Assembly (NCBI GenBank): GCA_900617975.1
Contig: UZAE01013124.1
Coordinates: 1 to 26,187, forward strand
Source: Rodentolepis nana
Taxonomy: Eukaryota; Platyhelminthes; Cestoda; Cyclophyllidea; Hymenolepididae
DNA: 26,187 nt
Direction: 5' to 3'
Part shown: positions 41 through 26,187 of the stretch, one piece after another
Position numbering within the stretch: position 1 is the first letter of the stretch
Layout: every line of letters begins with the position of its first letter
The notes under the pieces: generated by a model
What the model was told of the DNA's origin: nothing
Databases searched by the model: none
Seen by the model: only the letters and a program-made list of their open reading frames with translations
Translations under genes and position numbers: made by a program

Positions 41-1670
41 ATATCAAAGCATCAAGCTCCGAGATATTTTGGATCATTTATTCTGGTTGAGGCGTGCCTT
101 TCAAGGTGAGTAATTTGTTAAGACAATGTCAATTTTCAGAACAAATTATCGCAGTTACTTAGGATTTACCAATCCCGGAGTTAAAGAATCATTTCAAATT
201 GGTCCGATTGACAACAAAAGGTTCGATATTTCACGTTTTATAGAAATAGGTGTTCGTTTCTGTTCCGTTTCTAAGATAAGTAACTGATATTAAGCAACAT
301 AATTTATCCACAATCAATTGACTCGACCTAAACTTGAGTATCTTACATGTTGTATAAACGGCTTTTCATTGTTTTCAATGTCCTTGTTATTTTATTTCAT
401 AAATAGTTACTTTGGAATTGTTTTTAATTTTTAGACGAAACAACCATTTCAAGTAGGATTTGTAATGAAAGGTTATTATTGCTAATGGGTACTTCCTGAT
501 AAAGAGCAGAACTCAAAGAATCGATTTAAATTATTGGAGAAAACATAAAAAGTTTCTGCCATTAGCAATTGAAGTATCGAAAATCGATACTCACTAAACA
601 ACGCACCAGATTATTCCACAGTTTAAATTAATTTATGTAACAGCGTATCATGACGTGACCTATTTTGTCTTGTTGCCCGATTATTCAGCTCAACACGGCA
701 GTAATTTAATTTGCTGACAAAATCATTTTAAAATAATTTCTGGAATTATTTATTATTGTTTCTACAACAACGCGGCTTTTATCCAACTATTAATTAAATA
801 TACGATTTTGAATGAATTATAAAATGAAAAGAATCGATTCGAGTTACCTACTAGATCAATTTTCTAGTACGCACAGCGGTAGGTTGACGAGCCATCCATA
901 GAACGGAAATCGATAATCCCACACTTACGCACCAAGTCTAATGCACATCACAAATGAATAAATTTTAAGTCATAACAGATCTCACAGCTAATAATTAAAT
1001 TGATGAAAATCATTTAGCTTCCTCCGCAATAAACAATATCCAATTTAAAGGCAACAAAATTTAAGTAGACAAGTATCGAGAGTCCATTCAGTTTGTGAAT
1101 TAAAAATACGATTCTTTCTGTCAAAGTGTCACTAACAATTTTTATGATAGCGTGGGCATGTTTCGTTGAATCTTAATTAAGCTCTCTATTATGTGTGTGC
1201 CAACATCATTGAAATTCAAGACAGAGAAAGATCAAAGGCACTTTCAACAAAGACCACACACTCTAATTAGATATAAATTTGCTATAATTATAACACTATG
1301 TAATCGGCTTCATCCATAAGAATAAATAAGTTTCCCTAAGGCGACAAGCCCTTCACGTGAGTATACTTAATTTAGTATTCGTGAATCTGACAAACTGAGG
1401 AAAATCCACTAGATTACTTCGATTATTGAGATGTTTTGATTTGCACTAGTTGTAATCATCACCATCATTGCAAAATTTACACTTCGATAGGTGTGGTTTT
1501 TCGTCTCTTGTATGAGTCGCAATGAGAATGTGAAAGGCATATTACGAAAAGTGCATTAAGTTGATTTGGTTGAAATGCAGTCAGAAATAGTTCACATTAA
1601 CATACAATCTGAAGAGTGGAATTTCGAAAGTTTTAAGTTGTATTTACTAAGGAGGGAGGAAAGCAAAATA
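41..1670. other. AT-rich DNA without a recognisable gene
   Basis: I see no coding region, RNA gene or transposon here. There is a perfect 8-bp inverted repeat with a 3-base loop at 573-591 (AGTATCGA and TCGATACT), and four ATCGAT hexamers lie between 520 and 914. These may be chance in AT-rich sequence. Confidence 0.5.
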
Positions 1671-6452: not shown

Positions 6453-6466
6453 CATTATAGAATATT

Positions 6467-6794
6467 TGTTTATTTATTTATATCAAATGGCGGGCCTTTT
6501 GATGGCTATCACTAGCCCATTAGTTGACTTCAGGCTTCACCGAGGGGAGGAGGAACGTCAAAGTGAGAAAAATTCGAGAGGGGGGAGCAGAAGAAAGATT
6601 CGCAGATGTAAAAGAGACAGACACAAAGGAAGAGAAAAGGTAAGGTGAGTACTGCGGAAGGGGTAGAATATGACATACAATGGGGGCATTGCAGTTTGAA
6701 GTCAGAAGTCAACTGCCTGTTAATAGACATTTCTGCCGTATGAGTATACGTTGTCCAGGGTGCACCACGTGGAGGTAAGTCTATCACACACCCC
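6467..6794 (-). mobile_element. Short ribozyme-headed retroposon, copy A
   Basis: This is a full-length short copy with its sense strand on minus. It is flanked by a 14-bp target duplication, CATTATAGAATATT at 6453-6466 and CATTATGGAATATT at 6795-6808 (one mismatch). The sense order is: ribozyme head (6794-6723); about 30 nt shared with the LINE copy F; a pyrimidine-rich body of about 150 nt; a 3' region shared with the LINE; a hairpin TGAT-loop-ATCA at 6500-6511; GCCATTTGA; and an (ATAA)-type tail at 6467-6484. It contains no meaningful coding sequence and no convincing tRNA-type A or B box. It must therefore rely on an outside reverse transcriptase, most simply that of the LINE seen in F and G. 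It is closest to copy C: both have GGACAAC in the head. Confidence 0.9.
6723..6794 (-). ncRNA. HDV-like self-cleaving ribozyme, copy A (predicted active)
   Basis: Sense-strand model from G1 at 6794: P1 GGGGUGU with GCACCCU (G1 pairs with U as a wobble); J1/2 GUG; P2 AUAGAC with GUCUAU; P3 ACC with GGU; L3 UCCACGU, whose CC pairs with the GG after P1 to make P1.1; then ACAA; P4 CGUAU with AUACG, all Watson-Crick, closed by ACUC; and the candidate catalytic C opposite 6735 in GGCAGAAA. The usual third G of GGGCAAC is A here. Known HDV-like ribozymes cleave just 5' of G1, which here is the element's first base. Activity is inferred from folding only. Confidence 0.85.
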
Positions 6795-6808
6795 CATTAT
6801 GGAATATT

Positions 6809-9284: not shown

Positions 9285-9296
9285 CCCAACAAGCAT

Positions 9297-9609
9297 TTAT
9301 TCAATTATATCAAATGGCAGGTGTTTTGATAATTGATATTAGCTCTTTAGCTGACTTCGGGCTTCACAGAGGAAAGGAACATCAGTATGAGAAAAATTCG
9401 AGAGGGGGGAACAGAAGAGTGATTCACAGATATAAAAGAGATAGAAATAAAGGTAGATAAAAAGGTAAGGTTAGTACTGTGAAAGTGGACAGTGGGATCA
9501 TGGTAGTTTGAAGTGAGAAGTCAAATGAAAGTTAATAGACTTTTTTTGCCTTATGAGTATACGTTGCGTAGGATGCACCACGTGCAGGTAAGTCTATCGC
9601 ACACCACAT
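9297..9609 (-). mobile_element. Short ribozyme-headed retroposon, copy B (degraded)
   Basis: This is a short copy in minus sense, about 313 bp. It lies between CCCAACAAGCAT (9285-9296) and CCCAACTAGCAT (9610-9621), a 12-bp target duplication with one mismatch. It is the most diverged copy: it has lost several bases in the body, the 3' hairpin has broken down, and its head carries multiple changes. Two extra bases lie between the duplication and the position equivalent to G1. The tail on the sense strand is ATATAATTGAATAA. The divergence suggests an older insertion than A, C, D or E. Confidence 0.85.
9535..9607 (-). ncRNA. HDV-like ribozyme remnant, copy B (predicted inactive)
   Basis: It aligns with the other heads from the position of G1 (9607) to the end of P2 (8 bp intact, AUAGACUU with AAGUCUAU). 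P1 has a mismatch at its second pair, and the GG needed for P1.1 reads AC. L3 is UGCACGU, so its pairing CC is also lost, and P4 has one mismatched pair. The candidate catalytic C (opposite 9548) survives. Loss of both sides of P1.1 makes cleavage unlikely. Confidence 0.75.
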
Positions 9610-9621
9610 CCCAACTAGCAT

Positions 9622-10443: not shown

Positions 10444-10457
10444 GTGACCTGAGCAAT

Positions 10458-10780
10458 TTATTTACCTCAAATGCCAGGCGTTTTGATAGTTATCATTAGC
10501 CCTTTATCTGACTTCGGACATCACAGAGAGGAGGAGAAACATCAACGTGACAAAAAGTCGAGAGGGGAACAGAGTAATGATTCACAGACGTAAAAGAGAC
10601 AGACAGATTCAAAGGCAGAGAAAAGGTAAGGTGAGTACTGCGGAAGGGGTAGAATATGACAAACAGTGGGGGCATTGCAGTTTGAAGTCAGAAGTCAAAT
10701 GCCGGTTAATAGACATTTCTGCCGTATGAGTATACGTTGTCCAGGGTGCACCACGTGGTGGTAAGTCTATCGCACACCCC
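10458..10780 (-). mobile_element. Short ribozyme-headed retroposon, copy C
   Basis: This is a full-length short copy in minus sense, flanked by GTGACCTGAGCAAT (10444-10457) and GTGACCTGAGTAAT (10781-10794), a 14-bp target duplication with one mismatch. The 3' hairpin is at 10484-10495, followed on the sense strand by GGCATTTGAGGTAAATAA. It shares with copy A the GGACAAC head variant, the AGAAAU segment before the second P2 strand and the body block GCATTGCAGTTTGAAG. A and C therefore form one subfamily. An open frame on plus at 10547-10729 is an accidental reading of the antisense strand. Confidence 0.92.
10709..10780 (-). ncRNA. HDV-like ribozyme, copy C (one core change)
   Basis: G1 is at 10780, immediately next to the target duplication. 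P1 (7 bp with G1-U), P2 (6 bp), P3, P1.1 and a fully paired P4 are all present, and the candidate catalytic C is opposite 10721. L3 reads ACCACGU: its first base is A where the other well-preserved copies and HDV itself have U. In HDV that U makes a non-standard pair with a loop G near the active site, so cleavage may be slower. Confidence 0.82.
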
Positions 10781-10794
10781 GTGACCTGAGTAAT

Positions 10795-17686: not shown

Positions 17687-17701
17687 AATATTACCAAAGA
17701 T

Positions 17702-17773
17702 GGGGTGTGCGATAGACTTACCTCCACGTGGTGCACCCTGGGCAACGTATACTCATGCGGCAAAAAAGTCCAT
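17702..17773 (+). ncRNA. HDV-like self-cleaving ribozyme, copy D (predicted active)
   Basis: G1 is at 17702, directly after the target duplication. P1 GGGGUGU with GCACCCU, J1/2 GCG, P3 ACC with GGU, L3 UCCACGU, P1.1 and GGGCAAC all match the family consensus. P4 is CGUAU with AUGCG (one G-U pair) around ACUC, and the candidate catalytic C is at 17761. P2 is AUAGACUU with AAGUCCAU: seven pairs and one A-C mismatch. Being on plus, it would act only in plus-strand transcripts. Confidence 0.85.
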
Positions 17774-18023
17774 AAACCGGCAGTTGACTTCTCACATCAA
17801 ACAACCATCACCCCACTGTATGTCATATTCGACTCCTTCCACAGAACTCACCTCGCCTTTTTTCAACCTTTATGTCCGTCTCTTTTCCATCTTTAAAACA
17901 CTCTTCTGTTCACCCTTTCCTCTCGACTTTTTATTGGTTTGATGTTCCTCTCCCTCTGTGAAGCCTGAAGTAAACTAAATGGCTAATGATAACTATCATA
18001 AAGCCTGTCATTTTATATAAATA
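17702..18023 (+). mobile_element. Short ribozyme-headed retroposon, copy D (opposite orientation)
   Basis: This is the only copy with its sense strand on plus. It is flanked by AATATTACCAAAGAT (17687-17701) and AATATTACCAAAGGT (18024-18038), a 15-bp target duplication with one mismatch, the clearest in the window. The sense order can be read directly: ribozyme at 17702-17773, shared segment to about 17800, pyrimidine-rich body to about 17955, LINE-like 3' region with the TGAT-AACT-ATCA hairpin, GTCATTTTATAT, and a tail (ATAAATA) merging into the duplication. The open frame at 17646-17942 crosses from flank into element and is not a gene. Confidence 0.93.
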
Positions 18024-18038
18024 AATATTACCAAAGGT

Positions 18039-19368: not shown

Positions 19369-19382
19369 AGAAAGGGGAAAAT

Positions 19383-19711
19383 TATTATCATTTCAAATGG
19401 CAGGTGTTTTTAATAGTTATCATTAGGAATTTGGCTGACTTCGGGCATCACAGAGAGGAGGAGAAACATCAAAGTGACAAAAAGTCGAAATGGGGGGGGC
19501 AGAAGAGTGATTCACAGATGTAAAAGAGACAGACAGACGCGAAGGAAGAAAAAAGGTGAGATGAGTACTGTGAGGGGTTGTGGAATATGACATACAGTGG
19601 GGTCATGGGAATTTGAAGTCAGAAATCAACTACCAGTTAATAGACTTTTTTGCCGCATGAGTATACGTTGCCCAGGGTGCACCACGTGGAGGTAAGTCTA
19701 TCGCACACCCC
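19383..19711 (-). mobile_element. Short ribozyme-headed retroposon, copy E
   Basis: This is a full-length short copy in minus sense. A weaker target duplication, AGAAAGGGGAAAAT (19369-19382) and AGAACGGGTAAAAT (19712-19725), has two mismatches in 14. It has the best-preserved head of all copies and belongs with B and D by the GGGCAAC and A-run variant. The body has a G8 run on plus near 19492-19499. The 3' hairpin has lost one pair, and the sense tail is GCCATTTGAAATGATAAT. Confidence 0.9.
19640..19711 (-). ncRNA. HDV-like self-cleaving ribozyme, copy E (best match to the model)
   Basis: Every element of the HDV fold is present on the minus strand. P1: 19711-19705 with 19680-19674 (G1-U wobble, four G-C, one A-U, closing U-G). 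J1/2: GCG. P2: 19701-19694 with the complementary AAGUCUAU ending at 19640, 8 bp. P3: 19693-19691 with 19683-19681. L3: UCCACGU. P1.1: the L3 CC with GG at 19673-19672. Then GCAA. P4: 19667-19663 with 19658-19654, loop ACUC. The candidate catalytic C is opposite 19652, followed by an A run into P2. At 72 nt it lies within the usual size range for HDV-like ribozymes with a short P4. Confidence 0.88.
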
Positions 19712-19725
19712 AGAACGGGTAAAAT

Positions 19726-23322: not shown

Positions 23323-23441
23323 TTTCATTTACTATTTCAAATGGCAGGCTTTATGATATTTATCATTAGCACTTAATCTTTGACTTCAGCTTCCCCCAAG
23401 GGGGGGGGGTACATTTATAGCAGTTAATTAATAGCAGTTCA

Positions 23442-23900
23442 TTAGTTGTCTTCTTGCTTCCAGTATCTCTGGGTTTCCGTCGTTGTCTTTAGGGCTGGAC
23501 ATCGAATCAGGTGGGTCTTCTCCATTTCCTCATGTAGGTTACATAGAGGGCATGTGGGTTGAGTGTATACTCCCAATCTGTGAAGGTGTTTTGCCAAGCA
23601 ATCGTGTCCGGTACGTAGTCTAAACTCAGCAACGGCTTCGATTCTTGGCCAGTCGGGTATGTCGGAGAGTGCCACTGTCCACTGTTTCTCCTTTGTTCGA
23701 GCTTTGAGTTCGTTGAACCTCGAGGTCTTGAATTCTCTCCTGATTAAGGCCTTCATTGTGTGGAAAGACATCGGCCGGTCCATGCATTGCAAAATCGTTG
23801 TCCCCTTCTTAGCAAGTGTGTCAGCAATCTCATTGCCTTTAATGCCACAGTGACCAGGAATCCATTGTAGGACTACTGTTTTGTTTTTCTCTCTCAGCAG
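23442..23900 (-). pseudogene. LINE ORF2 C-terminal fragment: RNase H tail and CCHC motif
   Basis: The minus frame is open from the N at 23901 to TAA at 23442, 152 codons with no start of its own. It begins inside a ribonuclease H domain: LQWIPGHCGIKGNEIADTLA, with the conserved His (codon 23852-23850) and Asp (codon 23822-23820). A linker and EFRLRTGHDCLAKHLHRLGV follow, then a C-terminal CPLC...HLIRC motif (C-X2-C-X9-H-X3-C). This order is typical of non-LTR retrotransposons that encode RNase H (I superfamily, such as Jockey, R1, I and LOA types); the clade cannot be fixed without the reverse transcriptase. Compared with copy G, one base is missing near the end (TGGAAGC against TGGGATGC), which shifts the last residues and gives an early stop. 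All upstream ORF sequence is absent. Confidence 0.9.
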
Positions 23901-23901
23901 N
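23901..23901. other. Unresolved base (N) at the head/body junction of copy F
   Basis: This is the only N in the window. It lies exactly between the ribozyme-bearing head (23902 onward) and the RNase H fragment (up to 23900). An assembler may have joined two repeat copies or closed a gap here, so sequence continuity at this point should not be assumed. Confidence 0.95.
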
Positions 23902-23926
23902 GAAGTCAGAAGTCAACTGCCGGTTA

Positions 23927-23997
23927 ATAGACCTTTTACCGTACGAGTATACGTTGCCCAAGGTGCCCCACGTGGAGGTAAGTCTATCGCACACCCC
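23927..23997 (-). ncRNA. HDV-like ribozyme, copy F (predicted inactive)
   Basis: G1 is at 23997. P1 is kept with a second wobble (GGGGUGU with GCACCUU), and P2 AUAGAC, L3 UCCACGU, P1.1 and GGGCAAC are present. P4 is CGUAU with GUACG, which still pairs through U-G although the sequence differs from the other copies. P3 has one mismatch (ACC with GGG), and the candidate catalytic C is U (position 23938). That last change should abolish normal cleavage. Confidence 0.82.
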
Positions 23998-25870: not shown

Positions 25871-26187
25871 CTAATATTATTATAATTTCAAATGGCAGGC
25901 TTTGTGATATTTATCATTAGCCCTTAAACTTTGACTTCAGCTTCCCCCAAGGGGGGCGGGGTACATTTATAGCAATTAATTAATAGAAGTTCATTAGCTG
26001 TCTTCTTGCATCCCAGTATCTCTGGCTTTCCATCGCTGTCTTTAGGGCTGGACATCGAATCAGGTGGATCTTCTCCATTTCCTCCTGTAGGTTACATAGG
26101 GGGCATGTGGGTTGAGTGTATACTCCCAATCTGTGAAGATGTTTTGCCAAGCAATCGTGTCCGGTACGTAGTCTAAACTCAGCAACG
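25871..26187 (-). mobile_element. LINE 3' end, copy G, runs off the window
   Basis: The sense strand is minus, and the 5' part lies beyond the right edge. It aligns with F from the tail through the 3' UTR into the ORF, differing at about 17 of 300 positions by hand count (about 94% identity). The 3' end carries the same TGAT-ATTT-ATCA hairpin, GCCATTTGAAAT and an (ATAATAT) tail. The left boundary is approximate because the matching target duplication is outside the window. Confidence 0.9.
25980..26187 (-). CDS. LINE ORF2 C-terminus (partial, open to window edge)
   Basis: The minus frame is open from the right edge to TAA at 25980-25982, 68 codons. It starts within VAEFRLRTGHDCLAKHLHR, continues through CPLCNLQEEMEKIHLIRC (C-X2-C-X9-H-X3-C, a zinc-binding type motif) and ends RRQLMNFY. 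The RNase H part seen in F would lie just outside the window. Unlike F it has no frameshift near the end, so its C-terminus is probably the native one. In such LINEs this protein carries endonuclease, reverse transcriptase and RNase H domains and performs target-primed reverse transcription in the nucleus. Whether the whole ORF is intact cannot be seen here. Confidence 0.85.
   Translation of the reverse strand, partial: VAEFRLRTGHDCLAKHLHRLGVYTQPTCPLCNLQEEMEKIHLIRCPALKTAMESQRYWDARRQLMNFY

Follow-up and report, generated by a model that had tools for sequence, protein, structure and literature searches.

A probable HDV-like ribozyme heads a short retroposon and its partner LINE in the tapeworm Rodentolepis nana

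What fixes the 5' end of a short retroposon that lies dispersed through a tapeworm genome? The question is raised by contig UZAE01013124.1 of the hymenolepidid Rodentolepis nana (assembly GCA_900617975.1), all 26,187 nucleotides (nt) of which are referred to here as the window, and in which the initial annotation had placed a self-cleaving ribozyme of the hepatitis delta virus (HDV) type at the head of a short retroposon family. Short internally deleted derivatives of long interspersed nuclear elements (LINEs) are called SIDEs. We consider it highly probable that the repeat is a non-autonomous tapeworm retroposon of this SIDE type, ~312 nt long, with an HDV-like ribozyme fitting its first 72 nt and predicted to cut before nucleotide G1 (19711 in copy E); the 5' end so set is what a LINE of matching head and tail would likely copy into new sites. 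Directly supported are the shared head and its fold, the boundary of target-site duplications at G1 (seen for the short element and for two copies of the LINE), the shared 3' tail, the lack of convincing RNA polymerase III (Pol III) signals and the conservation of the head over the body.

The head and its fold

Copy E, a full-length element on the minus strand (19383-19711), consists of head, middle, LINE-like tail and AT-rich 3' end. Its head was confirmed on that strand at 19640-19711, where it had been annotated, with G1 at 19711, the candidate catalytic C at 19652 and the end of helix P2 at 19640. P1 (19711-19705/19680-19674) pairs GGGGUGU with GCACCCU and includes the G1-U pair; GCG separates the 5' strands of P1 and of the 8-bp P2 (19701-19694/19647-19640, AUAGACUU/AAGUCUAU), and P3 (19693-19691/19683-19681, ACC/GGU) flanks loop L3 (UCCACGU, 19690-19684). 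P1.1 joins CC at 19689-19688 to GG at 19673-19672, the joining segment J1/4 (19673-19667) reads GGGCAAC, P4 (19667-19663/19658-19654) pairs CGUAU with AUGCG, and the candidate catalytic C lies within J4/2, GCAAAA. All pairs of the five helices form, giving a double pseudoknot with G1 in the first P1 pair, and the statement that this copy fits at every position was borne out. Its core is also complete by sequence, with C19652 in J4/2 and U19690 and G19685 in L3; we take a catalytic C in J4/2 together with the U..G of L3 to be the core motif of HDV-like ribozymes. It is very probable that the sequence at 19711-19640 represents an HDV-like ribozyme, with self-cleavage predicted.

The same fold had been ascribed to six copies, A to F, and this holds in part. 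Heads A, C and D share the intact core of E, with one P2 mismatch each, but B has lost one pair in each of P1, P1.1 and P4, and F, judged by reading the sequence and outside the pair count, carries U in place of the catalytic C (present in A to E) and a broken P3 pair. The ribozymes of copies B and F are predicted to be weak or inactive.

By covariance-model and descriptor searches the heads exceed chance expectation. A permissive Rfam scan of the window returned nine matches, of which eight were to HDV models, each in the sense orientation of a head. Model RF02682 matched copies E (43.2 bits, E 4.6e-5), D (42.5 bits, E 6.8e-5), A (41.6 bits, E 1.1e-4), C (37.1 bits, E 0.0012) and F (26 bits, E 0.45); model RF00094 matched D, E and A weakly at 29-34 bits (33.1 bits for E), and its alignments of D and E begin P1 at 17702 and 19711, respectively. 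Copy B was not among the permissive matches to either model in the window. Over the whole 107-Mb assembly, 37 of the 61 RF02682 matches listed stood above the gathering score, the strongest at 54.5 bits and E 1.1e-7; in the 14 control genomes the model had matches in 8 and above the cut-off in none. A lax descriptor, which was composed after the heads were known, matched the window five times (A, C, D, E and the decayed F) and had no match in 100 dinucleotide shuffles, both strands included.

Copies A to E form one family, ~312 nt long with AT-rich ends. By sequence comparison the unit is a non-autonomous retroposon made up of the ribozyme head, an unrelated middle and a LINE-type tail; no counterpart of the middle was found in the LINE sequence compared, which has gaps. 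The head is better conserved than the remainder: among 29 full-length copies that had not been targeted, divergence was 7.9% in the head (positions 1-74), 12.6% in the middle and 11.6% in the tail, and the lower divergence of the head relative to positions 98-312 had a permutation p of 0.001, in a sample slightly favourable to the head because only copies extending into the first three positions entered it. The 29-nt core GCACCCTGGGCAACGTATACTCATACGGC has 2644 exact matches in the genome and its reversed control none, a count in which arrays enter more than once and cores with any change are left out; the element is present in thousands of copies in the Rodentolepis nana genome. When the translated short element was compared with proteins, the sole candidate found for another host was a 'hypothetical transcript' of Hymenolepis microstoma (40/82 residues identical), a translated relative that takes in the ribozyme part as well.

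Where copies begin

The fold predicts cleavage directly before G1, and duplicated target sites record where copies were inserted. Copies A and C, both full-length on the minus strand, carry duplications that adjoin G1 and the 3' end of the element: for A (6467-6794), 13 of 14 letters match between 6795-6808 and 6453-6466, and for C (10454-10780), the 10 nt of 10781-10790 and 10444-10453 are identical. Copy D, full-length on the plus strand (17702-18023; head 17702-17773), has identical 13-nt duplications at 17687-17699 and 18024-18036, with two extra nucleotides, AT, before G1. These three reach the threshold that was set for a duplication (a score of at least 10). Below it are copy B (9297-9607, minus strand, full-length with a decayed ribozyme head), whose likely duplications at 9610-9621 and 9285-9296 match in 11 of 12 letters (score 8) and leave two extra nucleotides before the first head base, and copy E, whose likely duplications at 19712-19725 and 19369-19382 match in 12 of 14. 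The score of the latter, 6, equals the control median and is by itself not above chance; its best match still ends exactly at G1.

A larger set of 52 full-length short-element copies gave the same boundary. Duplications above threshold were found in 29 of them, compared with 2.06% of swapped-flank controls in one run and 76 of 3055 (2.49%) in another. The 5' duplication ended at G1 in 18 of the 29, one base inside the element in four and 1-5 nt upstream in seven, and none of these seven junctions with extra nucleotides had the lone extra G that a cap could leave. Of the 76 chance matches, none ended at G1 or at the base after it. Integrated copies therefore begin with G1, the predicted cleavage nucleotide. 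In a separate count, confined to untargeted copies of at least 150 nt that no locus end truncates, 36 of 46 started no more than three nt from G1. Together with the Rfam matches, the duplications uphold the initial proposal that a short retroposon family begins with an HDV-like fold.

We propose that readthrough transcripts of host genes would carry the element, in which the ribozyme would fold and cleave itself co-transcriptionally directly before G1. The freed RNA would end in the LINE-type tail, which the LINE protein would recognise, and target-primed reverse transcription would then run from the tail to G1. We infer these RNA steps by analogy with R2 and L1Tc (PMC3414825, PMC3774820, PMC4035085, PMC8256844). 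The common ends and the same kind of duplications suggest that the short element is likely copied by its partner LINE.

The partner LINE and arrays of heads

The window holds two 3' parts of this LINE on the minus strand, each with an approximate 3' limit: 23330-23900, with the RNase H end of the open reading frame, the 3' untranslated region and the tail common with the short element, and 25880-26187, which is cut by the contig end. Protein searches with the window fragment found many genomic copies. The domain order of endonuclease, reverse transcriptase and RNase H was pieced together from several loci, among them L088, with an open piece of 588 amino acids (aa) holding an endonuclease (PF14529) and the start of RVT_1 (PF00078, 29.3 bits against a cut-off of 29.6), and L070, with an open piece of 477 aa holding RNase H (PF00075); no uninterrupted full-length copy was seen among the loci examined, in many of which the assembly has Ns.

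A ribozyme head lies upstream on the same strand in 9 of 12 endonuclease loci. The other three are L078, which has a run of Ns, L086, which has no head, and L089, where a complete short element (757-1076, plus strand) stands upstream of the endonuclease frame, at the position expected for the LINE 5' head. In each of the four loci read for this (L080, L083, L084 and L088), the LINE frame begins where the head stops, in L083 with one stop codon soon after, and because the first ATG of the L088 frame comes ~105 nt after G1, the ribozyme makes up most of the 5' untranslated region of this LINE. Duplications end exactly at G1 in L084 (14 nt) and L083 (15 nt); L080 has a 7-nt exact run only, and L082 too little flank. 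As a group the LINE heads mostly have GGGGUGC in P1, GGACAAC and a different P4 loop, and the same helices are possible in them, P4 less well; the core CCUCCUCGUGG occurs in L081, L084 and L088. At the other end, the short element and the LINE have in common a tail of ~75 nt, around GCTAATGATAA.TATCA and GCCTGCCATTTGA with ATAA repeats, so that the short element shares both head and tail with a LINE, as a SIDE does.

A LINE copy with the same head had been annotated in the window itself. Such heads do stand at LINE 5' ends elsewhere in the genome, but copy F (23902-23997, minus strand) was rejected as one: it is a decayed head of the short-element type, ended by an assembly N at 23901 that precedes the RNase H frame, and it has no matching duplication. 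The single N at 23901 joins this head to the LINE RNase H sequence. Single Ns occur in many other LINE loci as well, and because they recur, the LINE bodies appear to be collapsed or gapped in the assembly. The annotated tapeworm gene models P0012, P0014, P0016 and P0017 (decapping enzyme, LIM, small acidic protein-like and protein kinase) partly align to the LINE reading frame; public annotations therefore appear to contain LINE-derived exons.

The label 'arthropod-type' given to the family was not sustained, as the nearest named relatives of the LINE protein are Rodentolepis nana and Hymenolepis microstoma proteins, one R. nana protein agreeing with contig C2663 at 98-99% across residues 39-459, and the host is a cyclophyllidean tapeworm. 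A solved-structure search returned general LINE-1, R2 and RNase H relatives only and pointed to no clade. An R2 LINE was considered as the partner and rejected, since neither flanks nor duplications agree between L080, L083 and L084 and the PF14529 endonuclease is N-terminal; between LOA/Baggins and L1Tc/ingi, domain order alone does not decide.

Partial heads also occur in head-to-tail arrays, in 7 of 115 head groups, or 7 of 110 head groups once overlapping loci are set aside. On the minus strand these are at L010:2617-2961, L016:1394-1571, L046:2574-2940 and L027:358-535, and on the plus strand at L073:503-847, L028:1502-1720 and L017:258-336. In the most regular of them (L010, L016 and L073), all 11 repeated units begin within head positions 21-34, and the ends fall at positions 60-74 in 10 of 14 units; in L028 and L017 the repeated stretch is the part behind the core. 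A further locus, C90:18569-18686, carries the exact core three times, at spacings of 42 and 47 nt. Judged by their sequence, the arrays look like products of template jumping by reverse transcriptase, and DNA slippage could also produce them. A more specific scenario, which we regard as possible but rather doubtful, is that the ribozyme is still folded during reverse transcription, the LINE enzyme stalling in P3, L3 and the 3' strand of P1 (P1'), returning to the A-run and the P2 strand that follow P4 and recopying the core. The ribozyme would then not only trim the RNA but also write arrays of ribozymes in tandem where new LINE and short-element copies begin.

The window also contains remnants of a DNA transposon: copies of a 40-nt repeat, direct and inverted, at 1-40, 1659-1700 and 2954-2993, and a broken transposase frame at 2370-2753 (PF01359, E 8e-22). 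We take these remnants to be mariner-type.

Weighing the readings and known systems

Several results weigh against a self-cleaving head. A scan of the window at gathering scores gave no Rfam match, the best HDV score (43.2 bits) lying just under the RF02682 cut-off of 44 bits that family members elsewhere in the genome exceed, and none of the 71 RF00094 matches listed genome-wide passed the cut-off of that model. The full predicted core was found in 17 of 38 heads (15 among the 28 of short elements, 2 among the 10 of LINEs; one of 39 heads was dropped for a deletion and the LINE head L079 was not entered). Covariation was weak: among 39 heads, four pairs had changed on both sides, compared with 2.3 in shuffles (84 of 500 as high), and the covariation score was equalled in 29 of 500 shuffles. 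Pairing did far exceed that of slid partners (90.8% as against 32-53%), in a structure that had itself been drawn from the same sequences. Nested folding energies were ordinary relative to shuffles (z of 0.11, -0.56, -1.02 and -1.54) and the best nested fold lengthens P1 at the expense of P3, by a method that cannot model a pseudoknot. Finally, 23 of the 52 full-length copies, B and E among them, had no duplication above threshold.

One rival reading is that the head is a conserved structured RNA for LINE-protein binding or the start of translation, without self-cleavage. The head directly precedes the LINE frame, covariation and nested energies are unimpressive, and some core feature is lost in 21 of the 38 heads scored; but the features that are retained are those of the catalytic core, and G1 is the insertion boundary, and we hold this explanation to be very unlikely. 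Somewhat less unlikely, though still improbable, is that the head acts mainly as an internal RNA polymerase II promoter, like Pr77 of L1Tc, starting at G1, with the HDV-like fold a relic or secondary. A transcript start at G1 would likewise give integrations beginning at G1, and a single 77-nt trypanosome head is both promoter and ribozyme (PMC8256844, PMC8190864). A promoter, however, needs neither P1, P2, P3, P1.1 and P4 together nor a match to an HDV model trained elsewhere, and the lone G of a cap is missing from the seven junctions where it could have been left.

A true Pol III short interspersed element (SINE) that resembles the HDV ribozyme by chance was rejected as extremely improbable. 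The element is short and dispersed, with a LINE-like tail and an A+T-rich 3' end, and A-box-like strings with one mismatch are present; yet no tRNA, 5S, 7SL or other RNA-family match that would fit such an origin was found in the window, the best B-box match has three mismatches, and the consensus has internal T runs of 6, 4 and 7 (4 to 6 in copies A, C, D and E), at which Pol III would be expected to stop.

The suggestion of the initial annotation that the family might be undescribed has to be taken with caution. In the literature searched, which was largely without subscription papers, no tapeworm retrotransposon with a ribozyme and no pairing of Hymenolepis with a ribozyme was found, and a search for HDV-like ribozymes in platyhelminths gave only R2; the report on the H. 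microstoma genome gives LINEs as 1% of the assembly, alongside much unclassified repeat (PMC7653826). Short insect elements with an HDV-like ribozyme, the R2 SIDEs, were already described in 2012, in a paper which reports that the ribozymes of Drosophila R2 SIDEs self-cleave in vitro (PMC3414825). In the present family a probable HDV-like ribozyme heads a flatworm LINE and the abundant, dispersed short retroposon that goes with it, with copies so many that the coincidence of insertion boundary and predicted cleavage site can be read from the duplications alone. Nature here supplies thousands of ribozyme variants in which the ends of the reverse-transcribed RNAs are on record, a collection suited to testing how HDV-like cleavage, choice of 5' end and template jumping act together in target-primed reverse transcription.

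In its fold and in its core (CCUC.ACGUGG, GGCAACG, P4 and CGGC.AA) the head resembles the HDV-F-prausnitzii ribozyme (RF02682), which differs in its bacterial setting and in a model whose P1 starts at a distance of two nucleotides from the register with G1-U in copy E. R2 elements similarly have a 5' ribozyme that defines the end of the LINE RNA (PMC3774820, PMC5035012), and the CCUCCUCGUGG core of three tapeworm LINE heads is reported as the most conserved string in Drosophila R2 (PMC5035012); R2 is site-specific in 28S genes, whereas the tapeworm LINE is not. The R2Dwi_SIDE and the R2/R1 SIDEs of Drosophila (PMC3414825) are alike in having mostly precise 5' junctions, but they are inserted in 28S rDNA and rely on the proteins of R2 or R1, while the tapeworm insertions are dispersed, with varied duplications of 10-17 nt, have a partner LINE with an N-terminal endonuclease of the PF14529 kind and RNase H, and number thousands of exact cores. 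The trypanosomatid NARTc/L1Tc and SIDERs, of another lineage, also combine a LINE and a short partner that both carry a 5' HDV-like ribozyme, and TbSIDER2 has tandem heads as the tapeworm family does (PMC4035085, PMC8256844). In its architecture and in how its boundary behaves, as far as sequence can tell, the family matches Drosophila R2 SIDEs and trypanosome NARTc, and it joins an already known type; what seems to be new is the host group, the dispersed partner with endonuclease, reverse transcriptase and RNase H, the abundance and the arrays of partial heads.
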